The notes beneath the pieces were generated by a model. That model was not told the DNA's origin. It made no database searches and saw nothing but the letters and a program-made list of their open reading frames with translations. Shown in pieces: positions 9,637 to 22,838 of a DNA stretch of 49,415 nucleotides (the first letter of the stretch is position 1; each line of letters opens with the position of its first letter). Source of the DNA: Terriglobales bacterium (GTDB taxonomy: Bacteria > Acidobacteriota > Terriglobia > Terriglobales > Acidobacteriaceae); contig JAATEV010000090.1 in the NCBI GenBank assembly GCA_015655585.1, forward strand, positions 1 to 49,415, in the 5' to 3' direction. A program made the translations under genes and the position numbers.

Positions 9637-11328
9637 ATGAAAGTTCTCGCTCTTCTCGCTGCATTCCTTCTCGCGGCCCCGTCCGCAGTCTTCGGGCAGT
9701 TCGAATCGGTGCCCGGCCAGGGACGCTCCATGGTCGTCACCAAATATGGAATCGTCGCCGCGCCGCAGTTCCTCGCCGCGCAGGCCGGTGCGCACATCCT
9801 CGAAGAGGGAGGCAACGCAGTCGATGCCGCCATCGCCGCCAACTCCGTCATGGGCGTGGTCCAGCCCTACGTCAACGGCATGGGAGGAGACCTCTTCGCC
9901 ATCTACTACGAGGCCAAAACCGGCAAGCTCTACGGCCTCAACTCCAGCGGCTGGACCCCCAAGGCCCTCACCATCGATTACCTGAAGGCCCACAACATTA
10001 CCGAGATCGACTCCATCGGCGTCCACACCATCGACGTTCCCGGAGCCGTCGCCGGATGGTATGCCCTGCGCAACCGCTTCGGCAACCTTCCCCTCCAGCA
10101 GAGCCTCGCCCCAGCCATCTTTTACGCCGAAAACGGCTTCCCCCTGGCCGAGCGCAACGCCCGCTACTGGGTCGCCAAAAAGCTCCTCCAGCAGCCCGGC
10201 TACCAGCAGACCTACCTGCCCGGCGGCGTAGCTCCCAAGCTCGGCGACACCTTCAAAAACCCCGCACTGGCCAACTCGCTCCGCCAGGTAGCCGAGCACG
10301 GCAGGGACGCCTTTTACGACGGCCCCATGACCAAAACGATGGTCGATTTCCTTCACGCCCAGGGCGGCACCCACACCCTCGAAGACTTCAAGGACTTCCA
10401 GCCCGAGTGGGTCGAACCCGTCTCCACCACCTATCGCGGCTGGACCGTCTACGAGCTTCCGCCCAACGGTCAGGGCGTCGCCGCCCTCTCCATGCTGAAC
10501 ATCATGGAGCTCTTTCCCATGGGCCAGTACGGCCACAACTCCGTGGACGCCCTCCACCTCATGATCGAGGCCAAGAAGCTGGCCTACGCCGACATGTACC
10601 ACTACGTTGGCGACCCTCGCTTCACTGCCGTCCCGGTCAAGGAGATGATCTCCAAGGATCTCGCCAAAGAGCGCGCCAAGCTCATCCAGATGGATAAGGC
10701 CGCCTGCCAGGTCGTCCCCTCCAAAATCGCCCAGGCGCTCAACGCCCACGGCAACACCACCATCTACCTCTCCACCATCGACAAAGACGGCAACATCGTC
10801 TCTCTCATCCAGAGCAACTTCTCCGGCTACGGCACCGGCATGGTCGCGCCCGGCCTCGGCTTCTCCTTCCACAACCGCGGAGCCGGATTCCAGCTCACCC
10901 CCGGCCTGCCGAACTCCCTCGCCGGACACAAGCGTCCGCTCCACACCATCATCCCCGCCTTCATGGAAAAGGGAGATATCCATATCGGCTTCGGCATCAT
11001 GGGCGGCTGGAACCAGGCGCAGGCTCACGCACAGTTCGTAGCCAACGTAGTCGATTACGGCATGAACCCGCAGGCCGCGCTCGAACAGCCTCGCTTCACC
11101 AAGGGCACCTTCGACGGCTGCGACGTCCAGATGGAGGAGACCGTCCCCGCATCCATCCGCGCCGATCTGGCCAAGCGCGGCCACCAGATCGAAACCCTGG
11201 AGCCGTTCTCCTTCACCGTAGGCCAGGGCGAAGCCGTAGTACGCGACAGCAAACGCAACGTCAACTTCGCCGGAGCCGACCCGCGCTCCGACGGAGCGGC
11301 CATCCCACAGGGCCCCGGCACCAAATAA
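9637..11328 (+). CDS. ggt: Gamma-glutamyltransferase, secreted
   Basis: It hydrolyses or transfers the gamma-glutamyl group of glutathione and related compounds in the periplasm. The 563-residue precursor starts with a signal peptide (MKVLALLAAFLLAAPSAVFG). The N-terminal nucleophile hydrolase pattern is clear: GGNAVDAAIA, NGMGGDLFAI, and the autoprocessing and catalytic site HGNTT with the nucleophile Thr at about 374, followed by STIDKDGNIVS. The later motifs (GYGTGMV and PRFTKGTFDG) are present. Instead of the usual Thr-Thr-His-Tyr the start of the small subunit reads TTIY. A perfect hairpin follows the stop. It diverges from the CysJ-like gene with 156 bases between starts. Confidence 0.95.
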   Translation: MKVLALLAAFLLAAPSAVFGQFESVPGQGRSMVVTKYGIVAAPQFLAAQAGAHILEEGGNAVDAAIAANSVMGVVQPYVNGMGGDLFAIYYEAKTGKLYGLNSSGWTPKALTIDYLKAHNITEIDSIGVHTIDVPGAVAGWYALRNRFGNLPLQQSLAPAIFYAENGFPLAERNARYWVAKKLLQQPGYQQTYLPGGVAPKLGDTFKNPALANSLRQVAEHGRDAFYDGPMTKTMVDFLHAQGGTHTLEDFKDFQPEWVEPVSTTYRGWTVYELPPNGQGVAALSMLNIMELFPMGQYGHNSVDALHLMIEAKKLAYADMYHYVGDPRFTAVPVKEMISKDLAKERAKLIQMDKAACQVVPSKIAQALNAHGNTTIYLSTIDKDGNIVSLIQSNFSGYGTGMVAPGLGFSFHNRGAGFQLTPGLPNSLAGHKRPLHTIIPAFMEKGDIHIGFGIMGGWNQAQAHAQFVANVVDYGMNPQAALEQPRFTKGTFDGCDVQMEETVPASIRADLAKRGHQIETLEPFSFTVGQGEAVVRDSKRNVNFAGADPRSDGAAIPQGPGTK

Positions 11329-11393: not shown

Positions 11394-11423
11394 TTGACCT
11401 TGGTCTGATCGTCAGACTAGGAT
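11394..11423 (+). promoter_or_regulatory. Promoter P1 with operator between -35 and -10
   Basis: A -35 box TTGACC (11394-11399) and a -10 box TAGGAT (11418-11423) are separated by 18 bases. The spacer holds a perfect palindrome GTCTGA-TCG-TCAGAC at 11403-11417 that touches the -10 box. The same arrangement recurs at 13709-13738. This is the layout of a repressor-controlled promoter. The likely repressor is the FadR-family protein at 18746-19558. It drives the TIM-barrel gene at 11496 and perhaps the cupin. Confidence 0.8.
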
Positions 11424-11495
11424 TCAGCGACCGAATAAATTTTCCATTGCCCGCGATATCATCTGGCAAACGAATCAACTTAGGGAGAAAGAAGA

Positions 11496-13076
11496 ATGAG
11501 CGAAATAACTCCGGGCTTTAAAGAAAGCTCGCGTCGTAGCTTTCTAAAAGGCATCACCGCAACCCCTGCCATGGCCCTTGCCTCTGGAGAAGGCCTCCTC
11601 GCTCAAGCAGCCCGCCCGGCGGCCGGCAATGCAGCGCCCGCTGCCCGGCGCAACCCGGATGCTCCCGCGCCCTTCCCTCCTCCGGGAAAGAAGTTCATCG
11701 CCATGCAGATCGGCGCCCGCTCCTTCGTAGACGAAGGCGTAGATAAGTGTCTCGACACGCTTCGGGAAAAAGGCGGCGTCAACGTCCTCATGGCCACCGT
11801 CTTCACCTACGGAACCGGCCTCGCTGGCCGTCAGGTTCGCAGCGAGCCTCTCCCCGACCACGGCGTTCAGGAGTACGACCGCGTCCACGGCGGCAGCTAC
11901 GCCAAGGTTCATCCCGAGTTCTACAACAACTCGCCCGTCAAGGACATCCGCGCCCCCGAGCTCGGCAACTTCGACATCCTCGCCGATGTCATCCCCGCGG
12001 CCAAGGCCAAGGGAATGCAGACCTACGCTCTCTTCGAAGAGGCCTACAACCCAAGCCTCACGCCGAACTTCGAGACCGTCTGCGAGGTAGACCTTTACGG
12101 CAAGCTTGGCCGCAATACCTGCTTCAACAATCCCAACGCCCGCGCCTTCCTCTCCGCCATGGTCTCCGACTGGGTGACCAACAACGATATCGACGGCCTC
12201 ATGTGGGAGTCCGAGCGTCAGGGTCCTCTCAACAGCACCCTCGGCGCGCACTTCGGCGCTGTCAGCGCCCGCCGCTCCAGCATCTGCTGCTTCTGCGAGC
12301 ACTGCATCCGCAAGGCAAAGGAGGTCGGCATCGACGGCCGGCGCGCCCGCGAGGGATACATCGCGCTCGATCACTGGGTCAGCCGCACTCTCAGCGGTCC
12401 CCGCGTCGCCGACGGCACCTTCATCAGCCTCTGGCGCGTCTTCCTGGAGTACCCCGAGCTACTCGCATGGGAGCGCTTCTGGTACACCAGCCAGGAGGAG
12501 GCATACGGCCTCATCTACGGCACGGCAAAGGCCATCAAGCCCCGCATTCAGGTCGGCTGGCACATCATGCACCTCGTCGCGATGAGCCCCTTCTACGCCG
12601 CGGACACCAACTACTCCAGGCTCGTCCACGTCTCCGACTACATCAAGCCTTCGCCCTATAACAACTGTGGTGGCCCACGCTTCGCGCAGTACATCCGCAA
12701 CGTCCAGTCCACCATCTTCCGCGACATGACGCCCGAACAGGTGCTCGACATGCACTACAAGTTCCTCGGCCTGCAGAACGAGCCCACGCTCGACAAGCTG
12801 CCCACCAGCGGCCTCTCCGGAGCCTCCGTCGGTGTCGAGACCGCGCGCGCCATCGCCGATGTCGAAGGACAGATCCCCATCTATCCCGGCATCGACATCG
12901 ACATCCCCACCGGCCTTCAGGAGAAGCGCACGCAACCCTCCGACGTAAAGGCCGCAACCCTCGCAGCCTTCAAGGCCGGAGCCCCCGGCGTCGTTCTCTC
13001 CCGCAAATACGCCGAGATGAAGCTGACCAACATCGCAGGAGCAGGCGAGGCCCTCAAGGAACTCGGCTACTACTAA
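11496..13076 (+). CDS. Tat-exported TIM-barrel-like (glycoside hydrolase-like) protein, paralog 1
   Basis: A 526-residue protein with a twin-arginine signal (SSRRSFLKG, residues 11-19). The mature part resembles uncharacterised glycoside-hydrolase-like TIM barrels: TCFNNPNARAF at about 208-218, DIDGLMWESER at about 231-241 with Glu240 as candidate acid, the Cys cluster CCFCEHC at 264-270, LYGTAKAIKP, and IYPGIDIDIPT near the C-terminus. The same landmarks occur in order in the protein at 17157-18698, so the two are paralogs. The start is supported by AGGGAG upstream. It is controlled by P1 and followed by an intercistronic hairpin and a cupin gene. The substrate is unknown, and hydrolase activity is inferred from fold-level resemblance only. 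Confidence 0.85.
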   Translation: MSEITPGFKESSRRSFLKGITATPAMALASGEGLLAQAARPAAGNAAPAARRNPDAPAPFPPPGKKFIAMQIGARSFVDEGVDKCLDTLREKGGVNVLMATVFTYGTGLAGRQVRSEPLPDHGVQEYDRVHGGSYAKVHPEFYNNSPVKDIRAPELGNFDILADVIPAAKAKGMQTYALFEEAYNPSLTPNFETVCEVDLYGKLGRNTCFNNPNARAFLSAMVSDWVTNNDIDGLMWESERQGPLNSTLGAHFGAVSARRSSICCFCEHCIRKAKEVGIDGRRAREGYIALDHWVSRTLSGPRVADGTFISLWRVFLEYPELLAWERFWYTSQEEAYGLIYGTAKAIKPRIQVGWHIMHLVAMSPFYAADTNYSRLVHVSDYIKPSPYNNCGGPRFAQYIRNVQSTIFRDMTPEQVLDMHYKFLGLQNEPTLDKLPTSGLSGASVGVETARAIADVEGQIPIYPGIDIDIPTGLQEKRTQPSDVKAATLAAFKAGAPGVVLSRKYAEMKLTNIAGAGEALKELGYY

Positions 13077-13105
13077 ACTCCGCGAACCAATCCGCATCCA
13101 CAACC

Positions 13106-13140
13106 CGCCCGGCCTGCATCCACAAGCTGCAAGCCGGGCG
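13106..13140 (+). terminator. Intercistronic hairpin between TIM-barrel gene 1 and cupin
   Basis: An 8-bp perfect stem (CGCCCGGC and GCCGGGCG) encloses a 19-nt loop. No real T-run follows (TTCTATCAAC), so partial attenuation or 3'-end protection of the upstream message is as likely as full termination. Confidence 0.5.
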
Positions 13141-13180
13141 TTCTATCAACTCCCCCGGAAAACAACGGAGAACAATTCTG

Positions 13181-13603
13181 ATGATCGCTCAACTCATCGT
13201 CCTCGCCGCCATGATGTCGCCACAAGCCCCCAGCGCCCCTCAGGGATTCGTCCTGTGGCCAAAGGGTGTTCCTCCCGGCGGCATCACCGAGAAGGCTCCC
13301 TTCAGCAACCACGTCCTCTCTATCTCGCATCGCGATAAAGACGGACTCGTCGAGGTTCATGACAAGTTCGTAGACCTCATGGTCATCCAGTCCGGTGAGG
13401 CAACGCTTGTCGTCGGCGGAACCGTCGTCGAGCCCGCCACCACCGAGCCCGGCGAGATCCGTGGCAAATCCATTCAAGGCGGCATCACCCGCAAGCTTCA
13501 GCCCGGCGATGTCATCCGCATTCCCGCAAAAACTCCGCATCAGTTCTTCATTCCCGCTGGCGGACAGATCACCTATGTTCTGGTCAAAGTCGCCGCAGAA
13601 TAA
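13181..13603 (+). CDS. Secreted cupin-domain protein
   Basis: A 140-residue protein with a short hydrophobic N-terminus (MIAQLIVLAAMM) that looks like an export signal, followed by a single cupin barrel. The two cupin motifs are recognisable: VEVHDKFVDLMVIQSGEATLVVGG around residues 58-80, and PGDVIRIPAKTPHQF around 108-122. His60 and His120 are candidate metal ligands. Small cupins of this type include sugar isomerases and ligand-binding proteins, and which applies here cannot be told. It lies between two operator-controlled promoters, immediately after the TIM-barrel gene, and probably belongs to the same regulon. Confidence 0.85.
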   Translation: MIAQLIVLAAMMSPQAPSAPQGFVLWPKGVPPGGITEKAPFSNHVLSISHRDKDGLVEVHDKFVDLMVIQSGEATLVVGGTVVEPATTEPGEIRGKSIQGGITRKLQPGDVIRIPAKTPHQFFIPAGGQITYVLVKVAAE

Positions 13604-13673
13604 GAAACGATTAAGAAACAAATTGGTTGACCACTCTTTTCCTCCCCGGTCTCACTAAACCCCTGCCCCTCCG

Positions 13674-13689
13674 ATGTATTCGCATACAT
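13674..13689. promoter_or_regulatory. Palindrome upstream of promoter P2, possible activator site
   Basis: ATGTAT-TCGC-ATACAT is a perfect 6-bp inverted repeat centred about 63 bases before the predicted transcription start of P2. That is a typical position for a class I activator. No other copy was noticed near P1 or P3. The regulator is unknown. Confidence 0.4.
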
Positions 13690-13708
13690 TGCTCCAAGAT
13701 ATTTTCCG

Positions 13709-13738
13709 TTGACTTTGGTCTGACAATATGACTACTAT
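13709..13738 (+). promoter_or_regulatory. Promoter P2 with operator between -35 and -10
   Basis: TTGACT (13709-13714) and TACTAT (13733-13738) have an 18-base spacer carrying GTCTGA-CAA-TATGAC at 13718-13732, an imperfect version of the P1 palindrome in exactly the same register. It would drive the TonB-dependent receptor and the second TIM-barrel gene, with a leader of about 95 bases before the receptor ATG. Confidence 0.75.
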
Positions 13739-13839
13739 GCCCCCCATCACACTATCTGAGCGTTGAGTGGTTGCAGTAGTTCAGGTATGTCCGGAATTGC
13801 GTTGCAAAGCGATCTCATCTCCAACCAGGGAGCACGCAC

Positions 13840-16800
13840 ATGCGTACCTACAAACCGTCAGTATTCCTCCTTTTGATTCTTCTCCTGTTCTCTACCAGCC
13901 ACGCTGTCTATGCACAGGCCGTGGCAAACGCCGAGATCCACGGCACAGTTCAGGACAGCACCGGGGCTGTCGTCCCTGGCGCACAGGTGAAAGCGACCCA
14001 GACCGAAACCGGCTACACGCAGACAACGGTCAGCAGCGCCGACGGAATCTACAGCCTCCCCAACCTCCCGGTAGGCCCCTACAAGCTCGACATCTCCGCG
14101 CCGAGCTTCAAAGGCTACACCCAGTCCGGCATCGTCCTGCAGGTCGGCAATAACGTCCAGATCGCCGTCTCGCTCGAAATCGGCAACGTATCGGAGCACG
14201 TCGATGTCCGCGCCGACGCCGCCATGGTCCAGACCCAGGACACCTCCGTCTCCCAGGTCATCGACCAGCGCCGCATCGTCGATCTCCCGCTCAACGGACG
14301 CCAGGCCACCGACCTCATCCTCCTCTCCGGTGGCGCGGCGCAACCGCCGAACTCCACCCGCGTCATCACCACGCACGACTATCCATCCGCCGTAGGTGTA
14401 TCCGTCGCCGGAGGCCAGATCAACGGCAACAACTACCTGCTCGACGGCACCGACCACAACGACTCGCACTCGAACGTCAACATGCCGTTCCCCTTCCCTG
14501 ATGCCCTTCAGGAGTTCAGCGTTCAGACCAGCGGCATCTCGGCACGCTTCGGCCTCCACCCCGGCTCCGTGGTCAACGTCGTCACCAAGTCCGGCACGAA
14601 CAGCATCCACGGCAGCCTCTTCGAGTTCGTCCGTAACGGCGCCTTCAACGCTCGCAACTACTTCGCTACCGCGCAGGACAGCCTGCACCGCAATCAATTC
14701 GGCGGCACCGTCGGCCTCCCCATCCGGCACGACAAGCTCTTCCTCTTCGGCGGCTTTCAGGCCACGCGCGAGCGCACCGCACCGCCGCAGACCATCTCTT
14801 ACGTCCCCACGCAGGCTGCTCTCAATGGCGACTTCAGCGCTCTTGAAAGCGCAGCATGTCAGTCCAGCGGAAAAGCCAAACAGCTCACTGGACCTTTCTC
14901 GAACAACAAGGTCGACAAGTCGGCCTTCAACAGCCCCGCGCTCAACCTGCTCAAGCTCGTCCCGGTCTCTTCCGATCCCTGCGGAAAGATCACCTACGCT
15001 ATCCCGAATCCAAACAACGAGAACCAGTTCATCAGCCGTGTCGATTGGGCGCAAAGCTCGAAAAATACCATCTTCGGCCGCTACTTCATTGACGATTATT
15101 CGAACCCTGCTTTTTATACCAATAGCCTCCTGACTACGACACGTTCCGGTCTCTATCAGCGCGCACAAACTGTCGCACTCGGTGACCAGTACTCCTTCAC
15201 CCCAACCTTCCTCAACTCCGTCCATGTCGGCTTCGTAAGGCTCGCTGTCAACCGCCACCAGCCCTCCGGTATGCCCAGCCCCACAACGCTTGGCGTCAAC
15301 ATGTACAACTCCACCACGGACTTCACCGACCTCTCCATATCCAGCCACTTCTCCGTAGGCGGCGGCTCCAACGCTCCCGCAAGCTTCATTCGGAACCAAT
15401 GGCAGGTCGCCGACGACATCGACTGGATCATCGGTCGTCATCACCTCAGCATCGGCGGCGAATTCATCACCGGCCAGATGGACGAAAACAATTTGCAATA
15501 CGCCAACGGCGAATTCGCCTTCGATGGCTCGGCCACCGGCGACGCACTCGCCGACTTCATGCTCGGTAATGTGCATTCGGTCATCGATTCCAACGTGGCT
15601 CGCGTAGACCTTCGCCAGAAATACATCGGCGCATACATCGAAGACAGCTTCCAGATAACCCCTCGCTTCAACGTCCACGCCGGAGTCCGCTGGGAGCCTT
15701 TCCTGCCCGAGCACGATGCGCTCGCCCGTGGCAACCACTTCGACCTGGCCTCCTTCATCGCTGGCAAGAAGACCTCCCTCTACAACAACGCACCTCCAGG
15801 ACTCTTCTTCTACGGCGACCAGGGCATCCCCAAGTCCTATGCCAACGGCAACTGGCACGACTTCGCCCCGCGCATCGGATTTGCCTGGGACCCTTACGGC
15901 GACGGCAAGCAGAGCTTCCGTGGCTCCTACGGCATCTTCTTCGATCAGCCTGAATCCTTCATGATCCGCGACTTCGGCATCTCCGCTCCCTGGGGCAACG
16001 CCATCACCTTGACCGCGCCTCCAGGAGGCTTTTCAAACCCGGTCGCCGGTTACACCTTCCCCACCCCGATTCCGCCCGTTGCCACCGCCATATTCCCCAC
16101 TCAGGGCACCTACATCAACATGCCCCTCAGCCTGCATCATCCTTATATGCAGCAGTATGGTCTGAGCTTTGAGAAGCAGGCGATGTCTAACTGGCTCTTC
16201 GCCATCGACTACATCGGCAACCGCGCCACCCACATGCGCTCCGGCACCGAGCAGAACCCCGCCGTCTACGTGCCCGGCGCTTCAACGACAGCGAATACAG
16301 CCACACGCCGCACCCTCTATCGCCTCAACCCGGCCGCAGGCCAATACTATTCCGCGATCACCCTTATGGATGATGGCGTCAACACCTTCTACAACGGTCT
16401 CCGCGCCAAGGTGGAACATCGTTTCGCAAATCACTTCACGCTTCTCTCCGTCTACACCTGGTCCAAGTGCCTTCAGACCGCCGAGCCTCTAGGCAACCGT
16501 CTCTCCGGCAACAACGAGTCCAACCCCTACAACAACCGCGCCGACTATGGCCCCTGCGACTACGACCTCCGTCACAACTGGACGAACTCCGTCGTTCTCG
16601 AAGGCCCCAAGTTCAAAAACCTTCTCCTCAACGAAACCGCCGGCGGCTGGCAGTTAGCCTTCCTTGCCAACCTCCATACCGGCTTCCCCTACAGCCTCAC
16701 CACCGGCACCGACGCATCGCTCTCTGCTGTAGGTCTCGATCGCCCTGACGTCGTAGCCAACGTCAACCCCTACATTCGCAACAAGACGACCCACGTCTGG

Positions 16801-17082
16801 ACCAATCCAGCCGCCTTCGTTGCAAACGCACCGGGAACGTTTGGAACGACCCACTACAATTCCATGATCGCTCCTGCATACATCGACTTCGATGCCACCC
16901 TCATGAAGAGCTTCCACATCACCGAGCGTCAGCACTTCGACTTCCGGGCGGAGTTCTTCAACGTCTTCAACCACACCAACTTTTCGGCGCCCGTCAGCAA
17001 CCGCAACTCTGCAGCCTTCGGCGTCATTCAGTCGTCCAACCCGGCCAGAATTATCCAGCTTGCCGGAAAATATATCTTCTAG
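13840..17082 (+). CDS. TonB-dependent receptor, Oar-like with carboxypeptidase-regulatory-like domain
   Basis: A 1080-residue outer-membrane receptor. The signal peptide spans about residues 1-26 (LLLILLLFSTSHAVYAQA). A carboxypeptidase-regulatory-like beta-sandwich covers about 30-115 (GTVQDSTGAVVPGAQV, GIYSLPNLPVGPYKLDI). A plug domain follows (DLPLNGRQATDLI, GNNYLLDGTDHND, VQTSGISARFG, VVNVVTKSGTN), then a long beta barrel ending in the aromatic terminus LAGKYIF, which fits outer-membrane insertion. Such receptors import or bind large substrates using TonB energy. It is driven by P2 and followed by a hairpin and TIM-barrel gene 2. Its place in the cluster suggests that it handles the substrate or product of the exported enzymes. 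Confidence 0.93.
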   Translation: MRTYKPSVFLLLILLLFSTSHAVYAQAVANAEIHGTVQDSTGAVVPGAQVKATQTETGYTQTTVSSADGIYSLPNLPVGPYKLDISAPSFKGYTQSGIVLQVGNNVQIAVSLEIGNVSEHVDVRADAAMVQTQDTSVSQVIDQRRIVDLPLNGRQATDLILLSGGAAQPPNSTRVITTHDYPSAVGVSVAGGQINGNNYLLDGTDHNDSHSNVNMPFPFPDALQEFSVQTSGISARFGLHPGSVVNVVTKSGTNSIHGSLFEFVRNGAFNARNYFATAQDSLHRNQFGGTVGLPIRHDKLFLFGGFQATRERTAPPQTISYVPTQAALNGDFSALESAACQSSGKAKQLTGPFSNNKVDKSAFNSPALNLLKLVPVSSDPCGKITYAIPNPNNENQFISRVDWAQSSKNTIFGRYFIDDYSNPAFYTNSLLTTTRSGLYQRAQTVALGDQYSFTPTFLNSVHVGFVRLAVNRHQPSGMPSPTTLGVNMYNSTTDFTDLSISSHFSVGGGSNAPASFIRNQWQVADDIDWIIGRHHLSIGGEFITGQMDENNLQYANGEFAFDGSATGDALADFMLGNVHSVIDSNVARVDLRQKYIGAYIEDSFQITPRFNVHAGVRWEPFLPEHDALARGNHFDLASFIAGKKTSLYNNAPPGLFFYGDQGIPKSYANGNWHDFAPRIGFAWDPYGDGKQSFRGSYGIFFDQPESFMIRDFGISAPWGNAITLTAPPGGFSNPVAGYTFPTPIPPVATAIFPTQGTYINMPLSLHHPYMQQYGLSFEKQAMSNWLFAIDYIGNRATHMRSGTEQNPAVYVPGASTTANTATRRTLYRLNPAAGQYYSAITLMDDGVNTFYNGLRAKVEHRFANHFTLLSVYTWSKCLQTAEPLGNRLSGNNESNPYNNRADYGPCDYDLRHNWTNSVVLEGPKFKNLLLNETAGGWQLAFLANLHTGFPYSLTTGTDASLSAVGLDRPDVVANVNPYIRNKTTHVWTNPAAFVANAPGTFGTTHYNSMIAPAYIDFDATLMKSFHITERQHFDFRAEFFNVFNHTNFSAPVSNRNSAAFGVIQSSNPARIIQLAGKYIF

Positions 17083-17103
17083 TTCGATTACAACCAGGAA
17101 GGG

Positions 17104-17126
17104 GCCTCGCTTCTATCAAGCGAGGC
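17104..17126 (+). other. Intercistronic stem-loop between receptor and TIM-barrel gene 2
   Basis: A perfect 9-bp stem (GCCTCGCTT, loop CTATC, AAGCGAGGC) lies 21 bases after the receptor stop and 30 bases before the next start. It has no T-run, so it may protect or process the message and set different levels of the two products, rather than terminate. Confidence 0.6.
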
Positions 17127-17156
17127 TCATCCAATCTTTTAAGGGGATGAAGACAG

Positions 17157-18698
17157 ATGAGTGTGGAATTTAATCGGAGAAAATTCGTACAGCTTTTAGG
17201 CGCTCTATCCGCAGAACTCGGCTTCGCCGCAAAGACCCCGGCAGCCGCGCAGGAGCCAACCCACTACAGGTCTGAAGAAATCTCTGGCCCCCACACCTCT
17301 ACCGTCAATCGCAAGAACGTCGTCGGCATCCAGGTAAAGCCCTTCGCCTGGAACGACGAAGGCATCGACAAGCTCCTCGACACCCTGCAGGAAAAAGGCA
17401 ATGTCAACACCGTCTTCGTCTACACCTACGACTACGATCCCAACCGCACCACCCAGGGCGGCCCCATCCCCCTCCCCGACCACGGCAAATACGGCCCCAC
17501 CGGCAAGCTCCGCACCGGCGGCGCCTTCTACGACTACGATCAGAAATATTTCCGTGGCACCTCCCTCAAAGACTTCCGCTCCCCCGATGAGCCCGGCTTT
17601 AACGTCATCACCGCCGTCTCTCCCAAGATGAAGGCCCGCAAGATGGACTTCTTCGCCTGGGACTACAACAACGCCTTCCCCGTCATGATGCAGAGCATCC
17701 CCGGCTACACCGAGGTCGCCGAGATCGACGTCTACGGCCGCCGCACCTCCAGCGCCTGCTTCAACCATCCCGACTACCAGGCCCATCTCACCGGCAAAAT
17801 CGAGTCCTACCTCTCGCAGTACCCCAACGAGGTCGATGGCATCATGTGGGGCTGCGAGCGCATGGGCCCCATCGACAACATGATCGGCGGCGGCTGGGCC
17901 ACCACCGGCATCTCCTGCTTCTGCTCCTTCTGCACCGCCAAGGCGCGCACCCGCGGCATCTCCGTTGACCGCGCCAAGCTCGGCTTCACCCAGCTCGACA
18001 AGCTCTTCCACGCCGCAGCCCAGCATCAGCGCCCATCCGACGGCTTCTTTGTCACCTTCCTCCGCATCCTCTTCCAGTACCCCGAAGTCCTGAGCTGGAA
18101 CATGCTCTGGAACGACAGTTACCACGAGGTCCGCGCCAGCCTCTACGGCACCGCAAAGGCCATCGCTCCGCAGAAGCCCTTCGGCTTCCACATCGTGCAG
18201 AACATCACCTTCAGCCCCTTCTACAGCGCCGTAGACGACTACTCCAAGGTCGCCGCCTACTCTGACTTCCTCAAGATCGCCTGCTACAACAACGCCGGTG
18301 GCCCACGCATGTCTCACTTCATCGATCGCCTCTGCTCCAGCATCTTCGCCGATGCCACCCCCGAGGACGTTCAGCCTTTCTACTACAAGATCATGGGCTA
18401 TGAACAACCACCTCTCAAGCAGATCTTCACCAACGGACTCACCCCCCAGTACGTCACCCACGAGACCAAACGGGCCATCGCTGGAACCGGCGGCAACGTC
18501 CAGATCTATCCCGGTATCGACATCGACGTCCCCACCTCCAAGGGTGAAAAACACACCACGCCCGACGATGTTAGCGCCGCCACCCAGGCCGCCTTCAGCG
18601 CCGGGGCGAACGGCGTCGTCCTCTCTCGCGAATACCACGAGATGTGGCTCGCCAACCTGTCCGCCGCAGGGGAGACCACAAGAAAAATCTTCGGATAA
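17157..18698 (+). CDS. Exported TIM-barrel-like (glycoside hydrolase-like) protein, paralog 2
   Basis: A 513-residue paralog of the protein at 11496-13076. It starts with a twin-arginine-type signal (FNRRKFVQLLGAL) and an Ala-rich cleavage region ending near AAAQ. Matching landmarks are DEGIDKLLDTL (68-78), PLPDHG (105-110), ACFNHPDYQAH, DGIMWGCERMGP with Glu234 aligned to Glu240 of paralog 1, the Cys cluster CFCSFC (254-259), YGTAKAI, IYPGIDIDVPTS and GANGVVLSREY. It has no operator of its own and probably shares P2 with the receptor. A 15-bp terminator stem follows. The function is unknown; a periplasmic hydrolase or lyase acting on the imported compound is the natural guess. Confidence 0.85.
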   Translation: MSVEFNRRKFVQLLGALSAELGFAAKTPAAAQEPTHYRSEEISGPHTSTVNRKNVVGIQVKPFAWNDEGIDKLLDTLQEKGNVNTVFVYTYDYDPNRTTQGGPIPLPDHGKYGPTGKLRTGGAFYDYDQKYFRGTSLKDFRSPDEPGFNVITAVSPKMKARKMDFFAWDYNNAFPVMMQSIPGYTEVAEIDVYGRRTSSACFNHPDYQAHLTGKIESYLSQYPNEVDGIMWGCERMGPIDNMIGGGWATTGISCFCSFCTAKARTRGISVDRAKLGFTQLDKLFHAAAQHQRPSDGFFVTFLRILFQYPEVLSWNMLWNDSYHEVRASLYGTAKAIAPQKPFGFHIVQNITFSPFYSAVDDYSKVAAYSDFLKIACYNNAGGPRMSHFIDRLCSSIFADATPEDVQPFYYKIMGYEQPPLKQIFTNGLTPQYVTHETKRAIAGTGGNVQIYPGIDIDVPTSKGEKHTTPDDVSAATQAAFSAGANGVVLSREYHEMWLANLSAAGETTRKIFG

Positions 18699-18720
18699 CG
18701 AAACGTGTTCTCCGCTAACA

Positions 18721-18756
18721 CAATCGCCTGATTCGACCCACCGAATCAGGCGATTG
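18721..18756. terminator. Bidirectional terminator overlapping the fadR-like stop codon
   Basis: A perfect 15-bp inverted repeat (CAATCGCCTGATTCG and CGAATCAGGCGATTG, 6-nt loop) is followed on the plus strand by CTTTTGC. Its right arm contains the stop codon and the last three codons of the minus-strand regulator. It ends the plus-strand receptor/TIM-barrel transcript and probably the convergent permease/regulator transcript too. Confidence 0.85.
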
Positions 18757-19558
18757 CTTTTGCGGCCTTCTTGCGCGGACTTAGCGTCTTCAGCCCCTTG
18801 CTTCCAATCGCGTGCTTCTCTTCTCCCAGCGAATCCGTATACCTCTTCAGCGCCGACTTCAGGTGACTCTGCATCGCAGCGCTGGCAACATCAGGATCTC
18901 TCCGCTTGATGGCATTCCAGATCGCAATATGCTCCTTCAGCGTCAGGGGCATCGCATTCGGCAGCAGCAGAACCTTCTGGAGCGTCTTCTCCAACTGTCC
19001 ACGAATCATCGCGACCAGGTCGTAGATCAAAAAGTTCTTTGAGATCGTTGCCATGGTGATGTGAAACTCCAGATCGAGAGCGGCAAACTTCTTCTCATCG
19101 TTCAGAACCGACTCCATCTTCTTGATCACAAGTTCCAGCTTGGCCAGGTCTTCCTCGCTTCCTCGAAGCGCGACGCTGGCCGCCGTCACTCCTTCCAGAG
19201 CAATACGCACCTGCATCAGGTCTTCGATATCGTGCTGCTCGGTGATGATCCGCCATTCGACGATCTTGCCCAGAAACTTCCCGCCGTTCATCGCGACCGA
19301 AGTTCCCTCGCCCACCCTCGCCGTCAACACGCCCACAATGCTCAGGCAGCGCAGCGCCTCACGCAACGAAGACCGCCCTGCATTGAAGTTCTTGCACAAC
19401 TCCCGTTCCGACGGAAGCCGCTGGCCCGGCTTCAGATCGCCATTCGCGATCAAAGCCAGGATCTGTTCTACAATCTCGTCGCTGATGGATGTCTTGGCAA
19501 TGGGCCGTATCTTCGATTTAATGCCCGGAACACGGGATACCTGGGGCTTCTTTGGCAT
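18746..19558 (-). CDS. GntR-family transcriptional regulator, FadR subfamily (FCD domain)
   Basis: A 270-residue DNA-binding protein. A winged helix occupies about residues 22-92 (LKPGQRLPSERELC, GRSSLREALRCLSIVGVL), and an FCD ligand-binding domain covers about 112-240. The likely metal-binding residues Asp162, His166, His210 and His232 are present, as in FCD proteins that sense small hydroxy or keto acids (LldR/PdhR/GlcC type). A basic tail (SPRKKAAKAIA) ends the protein. It lies 124 bases after the permease in the same direction, so the two likely form an operon. It is the best candidate to bind the three GTCTGA-N3-TCAGAC operators in the cluster. The inducer is inferred to be a 2-hydroxyacid. 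Confidence 0.92.
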   Translation of the reverse strand: MPKKPQVSRVPGIKSKIRPIAKTSISDEIVEQILALIANGDLKPGQRLPSERELCKNFNAGRSSLREALRCLSIVGVLTARVGEGTSVAMNGGKFLGKIVEWRIITEQHDIEDLMQVRIALEGVTAASVALRGSEEDLAKLELVIKKMESVLNDEKKFAALDLEFHITMATISKNFLIYDLVAMIRGQLEKTLQKVLLLPNAMPLTLKEHIAIWNAIKRRDPDVASAAMQSHLKSALKRYTDSLGEEKHAIGSKGLKTLSPRKKAAKAIA

Positions 19559-19682
19559 TCGATTCGTTTACCTCGCAAATCAAATCTCAAGATACACGAA
19601 AACCAGCAACTTACCGCAGGATTTAGACCTCTCGACACCCTGCGGAATTCCCGTTTCAACTCGATGGCAAGACACCGAGCCT

Positions 19683-21395
19683 CTAATGAAGCACCAGCTT
19701 CGTCAGCGATGGCGAGTAGACCAGAATCGAAACCAGCACGCCCACCAGGCACGCAAGCACGAAGCTGTGGATGAAGACAAAACGCAGGATGCTGCCTTCG
19801 CTCCCATACGCATTGGTCGCCGTGCTCGCCACAACCACGCTCTGCGGAGCGACCATCTTCCCCATCACGCCGCCACCCGAGTTGGCCGCCGCCATAATAA
19901 AAGGCGAGATCCCCAGTTGCTGCGCCGTAAACTTCTGCAAACTCCCGAAGAGCACGTTCGAAGACGTATCCGATCCCGTCGAAGCCGTCCCCAGCCATCC
20001 CACCAGCGTGCCAAAGAACGGATAGATCGGCCCCGTCCTCGCAAACGCAAGCCCCATCGTCGCATCCAGCCCGCAAAAGCGCGTGATGTATCCAACCGCC
20101 ATCAGCGCCGCAATCGTAATCATCGTGTAGCGCGTCGAAACGATCGTATGCAGAAATACCTTGAAGATCTCCCCCGGCTTCAGACCCATCGCCAGCGCGG
20201 CAATCAGCGCCGCCACCAGGATTCCCGTTCCCGTAGCCGAAAGCCAGTTGAAGGTAAAGACCGCGGCCTCCGCCGTAGGCACCGGTACTACCGGCGGCAC
20301 GCGGAAGACCACATGGTCCAACCCCTGCACTGGAATCTTCAGCGTGCTCAACGAATCGATCCACGCCGTAAACTTCGGAGTCCCCCATATCGCCACGCAG
20401 AGCGTCAGAATCGCCCACGGCATCGCCGCCTTCATCACCACATCCGCATGATGCCTGCTCGTCGAGCGCGGCAGATGCGTCACATCTTCCCTCGCGGCAT
20501 TCAAAATTCTCTTCGGTTTCCAAACCCGCAGAAACAGCACAAACACCACCATGCTGATTACCGCCGCGCTGATGTCCACCAGCCACGGCCCATGAAAAGT
20601 AGCGATCAGCAGTTGCGTAGAGCCAAACGTAACTCCCGCCACCAGAATGGCCGGCCATATCTCGATCATGGCCTTATATCCCGCATAAGCCCAGATCAGC
20701 CAGAACGGCACCATGACGCAGAACGGAGTCAGTAGAGCCGCAATCACGTGCGTCAGCACCAGCGTATCCAGCCCCGTAACCCCGGCCAGCGCAATCACCG
20801 GCGTCCCCAGCGCCCCAAACGCCACCGGAGCCGTATTCGCCAGCAGCGCCAGCCCGGCCGCCTCCAGCGGCACAAACCCCAGCCCCAGCAGAATCGTCCC
20901 GCACACCGCCACCGGAGTCCCGAATCCAGAGGCTCCCTCAAAGAACGCGCCGAAGATGAATGCAATCAGCAGCAACTGAAGACGGCTGTCTTCAGTCACC
21001 CCCACCAGGCACTCCTGCAGCAGGTTGAACCGTCCCGCCTTCACCGTCAACTGGTACATGAAGATGACGGGAAACACGATCCAGAAGATCGGAAACAGCC
21101 CATACCCCGCGCCGAAGACGCTCGAAAGCAGCGCCAGATGCGTCGGCATGTGGAAGACCATCGTCGCCACCACAAACGCCACCGCCAGCGCGGCAATCGC
21201 CGCAAGGTGCGCCTTGATCTTGAACCCCACCAGGGCAACCAGCAGGACCAGCAGAGGCAACGCCGCCCAGAAGCTTGAGAGCAGCCAGTGATGCGCCGGG
21301 TCGTATCCCTGTAACCAGGAACTACTCGCACTCACCGGCCCGTCCAGAAAAATTGCCAGAAATCGTGTGGAAGCTGCGATGTTTGGAATATCCAT
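19683..21395 (-). CDS. L-lactate permease family transporter (LctP)
   Basis: An integral membrane carrier of about 570 residues with a dozen or more membrane segments. Family landmarks are FPVIFMYQLTVKAGRF, FIFGAFFEGASGFGTPVAV, LLANTAPVAFGALGTPVI, PFFGTLVGWLGTASTGSDTSSN, and the C-terminal GGVMGKMVAPQSVVVA. Relatives import lactate or glycolate with protons. I favour ATG 21395; a TTG at 21416 would add seven residues, and neither has a good ribosome site. It diverges from the LarA-like gene, shares the operator-bearing intergenic region with it, and precedes the fadR-like gene. The neighbouring racemase suggests a 2-hydroxyacid substrate, not necessarily lactate. Confidence 0.93.
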   Translation of the reverse strand: MDIPNIAASTRFLAIFLDGPVSASSSWLQGYDPAHHWLLSSFWAALPLLVLLVALVGFKIKAHLAAIAALAVAFVVATMVFHMPTHLALLSSVFGAGYGLFPIFWIVFPVIFMYQLTVKAGRFNLLQECLVGVTEDSRLQLLLIAFIFGAFFEGASGFGTPVAVCGTILLGLGFVPLEAAGLALLANTAPVAFGALGTPVIALAGVTGLDTLVLTHVIAALLTPFCVMVPFWLIWAYAGYKAMIEIWPAILVAGVTFGSTQLLIATFHGPWLVDISAAVISMVVFVLFLRVWKPKRILNAAREDVTHLPRSTSRHHADVVMKAAMPWAILTLCVAIWGTPKFTAWIDSLSTLKIPVQGLDHVVFRVPPVVPVPTAEAAVFTFNWLSATGTGILVAALIAALAMGLKPGEIFKVFLHTIVSTRYTMITIAALMAVGYITRFCGLDATMGLAFARTGPIYPFFGTLVGWLGTASTGSDTSSNVLFGSLQKFTAQQLGISPFIMAAANSGGGVMGKMVAPQSVVVASTATNAYGSEGSILRFVFIHSFVLACLVGVLVSILVYSPSLTKLVLH

Positions 21396-21435
21396 GATTA
21401 GATAGAGATCGAACAACGTTCATTCGAGTGCGGCC

Positions 21436-21465
21436 ATTATCATCGCGGAATGACACAGATGTAAA
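21436..21465 (-). promoter_or_regulatory. Promoter of the permease-regulator operon
   Basis: On the minus strand TTTACA (21460-21465) and GATAAT (21436-21441) are 18 bases apart, placing a start about 35 bases before ATG 21395. The P3 operator lies immediately upstream at 21477-21491, just before the -35 box, so one bound regulator could affect both divergent promoters. Confidence 0.6.
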
Positions 21466-21472
21466 TAGTTAT

Positions 21473-21501
21473 TTTGGTCTGATGATCTGACAAACTATAA
21501 T
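21473..21501 (+). promoter_or_regulatory. Promoter P3 and operator for the LarA-like gene
   Basis: A perfect -10 box TATAAT (21496-21501) is preceded at 17 bases by a weak -35, TTTGGT (21473-21478). GTCTGA-TGA-TCTGAC at 21477-21491 matches the operators of P1 and P2. TTGGTCTGA is identical in all three. The site overlaps the -35 and spacer, consistent with repression. Confidence 0.72.
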
Positions 21502-21563: not shown

Positions 21564-22838
21564 ATGAAAGAGGCAAACTTTGCGTTCGGCAAACACGGCA
21601 TTCGCCTTTCTCTGCCTGAAGAATACCAATACGAGCTTGTAGAAAGCCGCACCGCTGCGGCTCTGCTGAATCCCGTCCAGGCGCTCAATCACGCGCTCGA
21701 CAACCCCATCGCCGGTCCGCCGCTCTCCGTGCTGGCCCAGGGTAAAAAGACCGCGGCCATCGCCGTCTGCGATATCACGCGCCCTGCCCCGAACTCCACC
21801 ACGCTCCCTCCGCTCCTCAGCCGCCTGCACCAGTCCGGCATCCCCGTCGAAGGCATCACCATCCTCATCGCAACCGGCCTGCACCGTGGCGCCACCGACG
21901 ATGAGATCCGGGCAATCGTAGGCGACGAGATCGCCAGCACCTACCGCGTCCTCAACCACGATGCGCGTTCGCGCGCCGACCAGCGCCACCTCGGCAGCAC
22001 CCGCCGCGGCACCCCCATCTACATCGATGAGCGCTTCATGGCCGCCGATCTCCACATCACCCTCGGCTTCATCGAGCAGCACCTCATGCTCGGCTTCTCC
22101 GGCGGCCGCAAGCTCGTCGCCCCCGGCGTCGCCGGGCAGGACACCATCAAAGTCATCCACTCGCCAAAATTCATGCGCGAGCCCATGGCCACCGAAGGCT
22201 CCTTCGAAGAGAATCCCCTCCACGACGAGCTCGTCGAGATCGCCTCCATCGCGCGCCACGACTTCATGCTCGACGTCACCCTCACCCAGGACCGCCGCAT
22301 CTCCGGCGTCTTCGCCGGCTCTCCCGTCGAAGCTCACGCCGCTGGCGTCAACTTTCTTCGCCAGACCTCGCTTGAAAAGCTCACCGGCCTCGCCGACGCC
22401 GTCATCACCAGCTCCGCCGGTCACCCCCTCGACCTCACCTTCTACCAGATGGTCAAAGGCATCACCGCCGCGCAGCACATCACCAAACCCGGCGGCAGAA
22501 TCCTCATCATCGGCGAGTGCCCCGAGGGCATCGGCTCCCCCGAGTTCGCCGAAAAGCTCGAAGCCTTCACCGGCCACCAGCAGTACCTCGACGAGATCCA
22601 GAACCAGCCCGTCATCATCGACCAGTGGCAGCTCGAAAAACTGGCCCTCGTGGGCCTCGAAAACAAGCTCTTCTTCTTCGCCCCCGGAGTCACCAAAAAA
22701 CAGGTAGGTGCACTGGCCGAAACCACCTACTTCGACCTGAACGAAGCTATCCACGCCACCCTGCAAGACCTGCCTCCCGGCTCCCGCGTAGCCTTAGTCC
22801 CCGACGGCCCCTACGCCTTCGCCCGCGTAACCCCGTAA
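21564..22838 (+). CDS. LarA-family nickel-pincer 2-hydroxyacid racemase
   Basis: A 424-residue protein, the same length as lactate racemase LarA. Residues known to matter in LarA are conserved at nearly the same numbers: Asp70 and Arg73 (DITRP), His107 (TGLHRGAT), His173 (EQHLMLGFSGG), Lys183 (GGRKLVAPG, the residue that binds the pincer cofactor), His199, and Gln295/Lys298 (YQMVKG). The family racemises or epimerises 2-hydroxyacids by hydride transfer through a nickel-pincer nucleotide. Lactate is only one possible substrate. The cofactor genes larB, larC and larE are not in the window. It diverges from the permease and is controlled by P3. AGGAGG precedes the start. Confidence 0.9.
   Translation: MKEANFAFGKHGIRLSLPEEYQYELVESRTAAALLNPVQALNHALDNPIAGPPLSVLAQGKKTAAIAVCDITRPAPNSTTLPPLLSRLHQSGIPVEGITILIATGLHRGATDDEIRAIVGDEIASTYRVLNHDARSRADQRHLGSTRRGTPIYIDERFMAADLHITLGFIEQHLMLGFSGGRKLVAPGVAGQDTIKVIHSPKFMREPMATEGSFEENPLHDELVEIASIARHDFMLDVTLTQDRRISGVFAGSPVEAHAAGVNFLRQTSLEKLTGLADAVITSSAGHPLDLTFYQMVKGITAAQHITKPGGRILIIGECPEGIGSPEFAEKLEAFTGHQQYLDEIQNQPVIIDQWQLEKLALVGLENKLFFFAPGVTKKQVGALAETTYFDLNEAIHATLQDLPPGSRVALVPDGPYAFARVTP

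Follow-up and report, generated by a model that had tools for sequence, protein, structure and literature searches.

Here, we describe a candidate regulon in a 49,415-nucleotide (nt) stretch of DNA from a Terriglobales bacterium of the family Acidobacteriaceae (assembly GCA_015655585.1, contig JAATEV010000090.1, positions 1 to 49,415; hereafter the window), in which three closely similar operator sites accompany the gene of an FCD/GntR regulator of the FadR subfamily. The cluster begins on the plus strand with the gene for HypA (11496 to 13076), a 526-amino-acid (aa) protein with a weak match to a Tat signal and no Pfam match over cut-off. After a gap of 104 nt follows the gene of a cupin-like protein (13181 to 13603, plus strand; Cupin_2 at 25.1 bits, under the cut-off of 27.2), which probably belongs to the same operon. 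A TonB-dependent-receptor-like outer membrane protein with CarboxypepD_reg and OMP_b-brl_4 domains (13840 to 17082, plus strand) is likewise followed, after 74 nt and probably in one operon, by HypB (17157 to 18698, plus strand), a paralogue 39% identical to HypA. The regulator gene (18746 to 19558) lies on the minus strand, and the gene of an LctP-family permease (19683 to 21416; TIGR00795 at 477.7 bits, cut-off 341) stands 5′ of it on the same strand, 124 nt away. Divergent from this pair, a plus-strand gene at 21564 to 22838 encodes a protein that profile comparison places among homologues of the LarA-family (nickel-pincer nucleotide) 2-hydroxyacid racemases. It carries LarA-superfamily Pfam domains (Lar_N at 192.6 bits, over cut-off), and its best NCBIfam match, the lactate racemase equivalog NF033504, reaches 369.3 bits, under the cut-off of 460, so that the profile assigns no substrate.

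Weak matches to the glycosyl-hydrolase-like families GHL10 and GHL6 belong to the relatives of HypA. GHL10 was matched weakly by three of five HypA/B family members (best E 2.9e-5) and was absent from the window's own HypA in a Pfam profile search. The predicted fold of HypA, with a mean pLDDT of 33, is unusable, and the sole match of HypA/B among profiles of PDB entries, Cwp19 at E 0.23, was not used.

Two of the operators are built into promoters. Operator S1 (TGGTCTGATCGTCAGACTA, 11401 to 11419, plus strand) lies within P1, TTGACC-18-TAGGAT (11394 to 11423, plus strand), which was recognized from the sequence, a consensus scan and pattern matches, and S2 (TGGTCTGACAATATGACTA, 13716 to 13734, plus strand) lies within P2, TTGACT-18-TACTAT (13709 to 13738, plus strand), which was found in the sequence and by the scan and has zero mismatches to the family consensus. 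In both, the operator occupies the 18-nt spacer between TTGAC and TAnnAT and ends inside the -10 element, contributing its TA. S3 (TGGTCTGATGATCTGACAA, 21475 to 21493, plus strand) stands between the divergent LctP-regulator genes and LarA. The -10 element of the LarA promoter P3, a perfect TATAAT read from the sequence (21496 to 21501, plus strand), lies 2 base pairs (bp) past S3; P3 has no TTGAC, is not among the promoters listed by the consensus scan, and its -35 element may be a weak TTGGTC at 21474 to 21479, 16 nt from the -10 element and inside the operator. On the minus strand, a promoter-like TTTACA-18-GATAAT for the LctP-regulator genes (21436 to 21465; 10 of 12 in the consensus scan) is separated from the end of S3 by 9 bp.

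A first-pass annotation of this DNA had reported three operators here, two of them set between TTGAC and the -10 element with an identical 18-base spacing and touching the latter, and this description is borne out. The exact motif TGGTCTGANNNNNNGACNA has three matches in the window and none in 100 dinucleotide-preserving shuffles, and the looser GTCTGANNNTMWGAC gives four strand-matches, at three places, where 0.03 are expected. With two mismatches allowed, the motif falls to chance (11 matches against 7.9 expected, 11 being reached by 21 of the 100 shuffles), so that the signal resides in the exact sites. The consensus scan lists P1 and P2 among six promoters in the region, against 3.0 (standard deviation 1.6) in shuffles, and the promoter listing is therefore weak by itself. 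The same annotation had all three sites preceded by TTGG, which is correct if the first G of GTCTGA is counted, but the stretch properly shared is TTGGTCTGA.

The conserved form of the operator was drawn from a logo of 38 sites with a matrix score of at least 18, seven of them from the window's own genome and some from close relatives (L055 and L167); the matrix had been refined from relatives' sites picked by eye, so that the counts within positions 0 to 19 are not independent of this choice. Outside positions -6 to 19, information is found only at position 23 (the final T of the -10 element), and the flanks are near zero. The spacer is the most conserved part, TGGT being kept in 37 to 38 of the 38 sites; TGAC occupies the -35 place in 27, and the other 11, chosen like the rest by their spacer, keep the spacer sequence without it. 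Positions 1 to 11 read exactly TNGTNNNACNA in 24 sites and TNGTNNNAYNR in 33; in the window, TNGTNNNACNA is exact in S2, exact on the minus strand in S1, and one mismatch away in S3. An extra box, AYNA at positions 16 to 19 in 25 sites, follows 10 to 11 nt from the palindrome centre, and this side is strong (G15 in 37 sites, A16 in 31, C17 in 27 and A19 in 32). On this comparison, the conserved form is best described as a FadR-type TNGTNNNACNA palindrome with an extra half-site, both of which S2 carries in full. The sites had originally been read as a 6-3-6 dyad, GTCTGA-N3-TCAGAC; the sites are real, but this dyad is exact in only one of the 38, namely S1 (S2 reads GTCTGA-CAA-TATGAC and S3 GTCTGA-TGA-TCTGAC), and it was rejected as the conserved form. 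Also rejected, as a family-wide motif, was the exact pattern of the window's genome, TGGTCTGAYNNNNNGACTA, which at 3 of 200 genomes proved too narrow and was relaxed from relatives' sites. A variant, TTGACACWAWTGGTCWGACCAACMTACCAT, occurs at L049:11594-11613 and L054:9401-9420; its outer half-site reads TACCA rather than GACTA, with three additional bases behind TTGACA, which suggests that the outer box tolerates TAC.

The regulator combines an N-terminal GntR winged-helix domain (PF00392, 64.8 bits, cut-off 27) with a C-terminal FCD domain (PF07729, 89.4 bits, cut-off 24.3). Residues D162, H166, H210 and H232, which we take to be the metal ligands of the FCD domain, are invariant in 10 of 10 regulators and align with the D/H/H/H of 2di3, NanR and 6az6; such a set suits a metal-bound acid. 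Scores against the characterized groups stay well under their thresholds, namely 116.5 bits for the LldR equivalog NF007741 (311), 86.2 for the GlcC equivalog NF007442 (301), 151.5 for the NanR subfamily NF003011 (260) and 109.7 for the PdhR equivalog (330). Judged by domain content and operator, the protein thus classifies as a FadR/FCD subfamily member outside the LldR, PdhR, GlcC and NanR groups, and the system is a new regulon of a known regulator kind. According to PMC4494728, the FadR subfamily includes regulators of glycolate, lactate, pyruvate and galactonate use, most of the subfamily recognizes TKGT/ACMA boxes 3 nt apart, and extra half-sites occur 7 to 12 nt from the site centre near GntR operators; the string 'Acidobacter' is absent from the main text of that source. 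The present system shares with LldR, GlcC, PdhR and DgoR the GntR winged helix plus FCD, the TNGTNNNACNA operator, neighbours that act on small carboxylic acids and a site position of the repression type, but differs in that its targets include outer-membrane receptors and hydrolase-like proteins and its operator is built into an 18-nt promoter spacer. The arrangement of a palindrome with an adjacent half-site also resembles the extra half-sites of that source, although those score on average about half of true half-sites, whereas the one described here is strong and partly coincides with the -10 element. Escherichia coli NanR, as presented in PMC8012715, is an FCD regulator, among the closest by profile, of which several dimers occupy closely spaced repeats; its site consists of three GGTATA direct repeats, in contrast to the palindrome and offset half-site found here. 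No paper on an acidobacterial GntR/FCD/TonB regulon was found in the open-licence PMC literature, which is weak evidence of absence; a search there on acidobacterial regulons and operators gave a paper on copper, and no listed title on GntR regulators and hydroxy acids was acidobacterial.

With the window regulator as query, 12 of 200 family genomes were recovered at E 1e-40, and a 10-member regulator profile identified 21 of 398 family genomes as carriers at E 1e-70, in a search that scored the best six candidates per genome and may have missed carriers. One check proposed by the first-pass annotation, conservation of the motif upstream of orthologous genes, was carried out with a matrix made only from the seven sites of the window's own genome. 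It was scored over the 470 bp around and upstream of every regulator start, and 200 shuffles of each locus served for comparison. Five further named loci were used besides the fetched neighbourhoods (a sixth acidobacterial one, L064, repeats L051). Of 29 loci in all, 28 could be scored, one being too short, and 24 distinct loci were left after omission of the window and L010 as training loci and of L166 (which repeats L052) and L067 (which shares a contig with L178 and L179) as duplicates. The best score was reached by at most one of 200 shuffles in 18 of these 24 loci, and by four and six in two more, which makes 20 of 24 at six or fewer; TTGAC, which is not part of the matrix, stands directly 5′ of the site in 13 of those 20. 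Three loci with regulators 34% identical (L057 to L059) were scanned once, with best scores of 12.4, 16.2 and 14.3, and left out of later counts. In two of them (L058:7450-10229 and L059:9721-12498), the genes for the LctP proteins most like that of the window (58.5% and 55.9%, where the other stretches compared give about 40% or lower) adjoin this more distant regulator, and a CTTGTCTGA-type site lies near the regulator start. A tree of 27 regulators left 8 of its 24 inner branches open and was not used for any claim of horizontal transfer.

The second proposed check, a scan of genomes and relatives, was made with the exact promoter-operator pattern TTGACNNTGGTNNGAYNRTNNGA, which occurs in 13 of the 398 family genomes and, as a reversed control, in none. 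It is present in 12 of 21 carriers and in 1 of 377 others, G112 (Fisher P 1.3e-16), and, within the genus, in 7 of 12 carriers and 0 of 38 non-carriers (P 7.9e-6). These Fisher values ignore relatedness, and the carrier counts are inflated, the patterns and the consensus having been written partly from sites read in carrier loci. Restricted to places not read before, TTGACNNTGGTNNGAYNRTNNGA has four matches, three of them in carriers (G320, G384 and G244; P 0.0006). A longer consensus with up to three mismatches is found in 17 of the 21 carriers (28 sites in all, none in the reversed control; the exceptions are G348, G363, G056 and G194) and in 1 of 38 same-genus non-carriers (G357). If only unread places are counted, these numbers become 4 of the 21 and 1 of the 38 (P 0.05). 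Sites can be distant from the regulator, as in G320, where one lies at C1:724824 and the gene at 4107373; in G117, an exact site without TTGAC stands upstream of a receptor-like gene (L061:9627-9646), about 3 Mb from the regulator gene. The cultivated carrier Edaphobacter modestus DSM 18101 has its site at 9882 to 9901 of locus L065. A single such regulator gene is present in 18 of the 21 carrier genomes at E 1e-70. Matches also occur in G112, G357 and G142, genomes in which no regulator orthologue was found; in G357, tblastn found no FCD relative in the stretch read. Altogether, related bacteria with this regulator gene usually have the same site next to it, so that regulator and operator can be matched with fair confidence.

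Further sites occur in the same genome, whose assembly (G000; 3.12 Mb in 122 contigs, 74.7% complete) includes the window as contig C39. Six sites are exact: the three of the window, one each upstream of receptor-like genes on C3 and C11, and one upstream of an FCD gene on C20. A seventh, with one mismatch (C11:79098), falls where an FCD gene ends, ahead of an 895-aa gene, and stands in register with a TTGACA. Other one-mismatch matches, including C11:15773, were left out of the regulon, as such matches are near control in number (11 against 11; 14 against 11). TTGAC-18-TAnnAT is present at five of the seven sites. The operator is thus shared, as first reported, but the regulon is not that of one cluster, four sites lying on three other contigs. 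Six FCD genes were found in this incomplete genome, three of which (C39, C11 and C20) are near sites; those on C81, C19 and C101 were discarded as candidate readers, their winged helix-turn-helix domains differing and the best score in the 14 to 16 kilobases (kb) read being 10.8, compared with 28 to 33 for the six exact sites.

Several details of these loci may be recorded. At L010:9092-9121 on C11, the one-mismatch site forms a TTGACA-18-TAGGAT cassette whose -35 element runs into the final bases of the gene for the FCD paralogue, and the 895-aa protein behind it matches no Pfam family and has relatives in 4 of the 29 stretches of the neighbourhood survey described below. On C3, a weaker second site, TTGGTCTGACCATCGAATGA, accompanies the strong one in front of the receptor gene at a distance of 57 bp (L009:6201-6277), with prolyl-oligopeptidase-like and proline-racemase-like genes nearby. 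A gamma-glutamyltranspeptidase gene, which in the window (9637 to 11328) ends upstream of P1 with no strong operator site in front of it, also accompanies the operator-bearing locus on C20 (L011:6208-7974).

Genes near the sites were surveyed in 29 stretches (28 fetched and the window), with mechanical open reading frame (ORF) calls, each BLAST cluster being named after one or two of its members. Receptor-like genes are linked by BLAST in 19 stretches, glycerate-2-kinase-like genes in 11, GHL6/GH42M-like in 10, tartronate-semialdehyde-reductase-like in 8, LctP in 7, SSS transporters in 6, arabinofuranosidase-like in 3 and malate synthase in 2. Malate synthase exceeds its NCBIfam cut-off, and the kinase and the reductase exceed Pfam cut-offs only and stay under the NCBIfam equivalog cut-offs. 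The 38 sites stand before FCD genes (16), receptors (11), the kinase (4), the reductase (4) and LctP (3), and before most others fewer times, divergent sites being counted on both sides.

Taken together, these observations lead us to propose, with a probability of roughly three in four, that the FCD/GntR regulator encoded at 18746 to 19558 binds the three sites as a repressor and is released by a small 2-hydroxyacid. Sequence comparison brings out the operator, its register, its distribution and its tie to this clade of regulators; on that basis we put forward binding, repression and an effector. A regulator dimer would bind TNGTNNNACNA together with the adjacent half-site. At P1 and P2 the operator fills the whole spacer between the -35 and -10 elements, and at P3 it probably takes up the -35 element and the spacer, so that the bound protein would exclude RNA polymerase and act as a repressor. 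In this manner, it would govern the HypA-cupin genes from P1, the receptor-HypB genes from P2 and, from S3, LarA and probably also its own LctP-regulator operon. The regulator would be released by a small 2-hydroxyacid that enters through the receptor and the permease, be it glycerate, glycolate, lactate or something closely related.

Several points weigh against this proposal. The evidence bearing on binding and expression is drawn from sequence throughout, and the effector class is suggested by gene neighbours rather than by ligand evidence. LarA recurs in just 2 of the 29 stretches and HypA/B in 3, and the sole glycerate kinase found in the window's genome (on C43) lies outside all the site places listed. 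Directly before its own gene the window regulator lacks a site, the best score there being reached by 142 of 200 shuffles, and autoregulation would therefore need to run via LctP. The site upstream of the regulator is at chance in 4 of the 24 loci (L052, L062, L170 and L174); good sites do occur elsewhere nearby in L052 and L174, a weak one (15.6) lies before LctP in L170, and L062 has none at threshold nearby. Applied to whole 20-kb loci, the matrix does not discriminate, since 74 far FCD loci from other phyla reach a mean best score of 12.4 (standard deviation 3.5, maximum 23.1), and a column-reversed control outscored the true matrix in 2 of 13 near 20-kb loci (L054 and L062). No FCD gene was found on contig C3 despite its exact site. 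In G142 (77% complete), a full TTGACA-18-TACTAT cassette with an exact operator stands 13 bp before a 364-aa ORF (L060:9725-9744), yet no regulator orthologue was found in this genome, and tblastn found no FCD relative in the 11.8 kb read. Lastly, S3 lies upstream of the minus-strand promoter, a position from which activation is also possible. As to L062, its regulator orthologue (L062:9986-10867, in the Terracidiphilus metagenome-assembled genome Chersky_484) adjoins a tartronate-semialdehyde-reductase-like gene without a recognizable site, and a second regulator orthologue of the same genome (L066) has sites.

The alternative that survives best concerns which protein occupies the sites. The FCD/GntR paralogue on C11 is 58% identical to the window regulator and has the recognition-helix core AGRSSLREAL in common with it, and the sites near the two genes show no evident difference; the paralogue therefore probably reads the same operators, and the two acidobacterial proteins may be redundant. 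A precedent exists in Corynebacterium glutamicum, where GntR1 and GntR2, termed 'functionally equivalent' in PMC2230225, are likewise two paralogous FadR-type regulators with one operator type, although their site positions vary by promoter and the register here is nearly fixed. The paralogue, or both proteins together as equivalent regulators of one operator, could accordingly be the main occupant, a reading that deserves real weight while falling short of an even chance; linkage favours the local regulator, and one gene suffices in 18 of 21 carriers. The first-pass annotation had assigned the sites to a FadR/GntR regulator in the cluster, and the Pfam domains of that regulator and the way in which the pattern tracks the gene agree with this, but with the C11 paralogue and the C20 FCD protein (29% identical to the window regulator) beside like sites, the regulon may not be a one-regulator one.

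A second alternative takes the inducer to be a sugar or uronate from glycan breakdown rather than a 2-hydroxyacid. The receptors (19 of 29 stretches) and the GHL6/GH42M-like (10) and arabinofuranosidase-like (3) genes would fit such an inducer, and glycerate kinase and tartronate-semialdehyde reductase can take part in the breakdown of sugar acids. Against it, LctP, malate synthase and LarA all have small hydroxy- or oxo-acids as their substrates, and the D/H/H/H residues point the same way, which makes a glycan-derived inducer rather doubtful. Of the first proposed label, a 2-hydroxyacid/glycan cluster, the former half is supported by the neighbourhoods of relatives, and the latter depends on glycosyl-hydrolase-like matches that are weak for the window's proteins.

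It is also conceivable that the regulator is an activator or acts in both directions, S3 activating LctP while repressing LarA. The 9-bp distance between S3 and the LctP promoter would allow this, and the positions of the C. glutamicum GntR1/2 sites fit repression of gntP and gnd together with activation of ptsG (PMC2230225). This reading is nevertheless unlikely, because a site that fills the spacer, as it does in P1, P2 and the 27 of 38 sites that have TGAC in place, is positioned for repression. Finally, a class of strong sigma-70 promoters whose spacer is conserved, with no regulator involved, would account for the inclusion of both hexamers in the block and for TGAC being in place at those 27 sites, but it is rejected as highly improbable, since the spacer is the most conserved part and is kept in 11 sites without TGAC, and the pattern tracks the regulator gene and matches the FadR-subfamily consensus.

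Under the proposed repression by the FCD/GntR regulator, a broader and quite tentative picture may be drawn, in which a patchily distributed FCD clade (21 of 398 genomes) would travel with a nearly invariant 30-bp promoter as a portable cassette. Its operator would consist of the spacer and part of the -10 element, bound by two dimers, or by a dimer and an extra subunit, on overlapping half-sites, with varied catabolic genes placed behind it (receptors, glycerate kinase, tartronate-semialdehyde reductase, permease, malate synthase and arabinofuranosidase). The tight register yields precise predictions, and the matching of a pattern to regulator presence across genomes offers a simple means of assigning orphan operators to their regulators. 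If true, the cassette would place some of the many outer-membrane receptors of acidobacteria under a one-component control dedicated to them. A regulator-operator pair recognizable from sequence provides a handle on receptor switching and hydroxy-acid use in soil bacteria.

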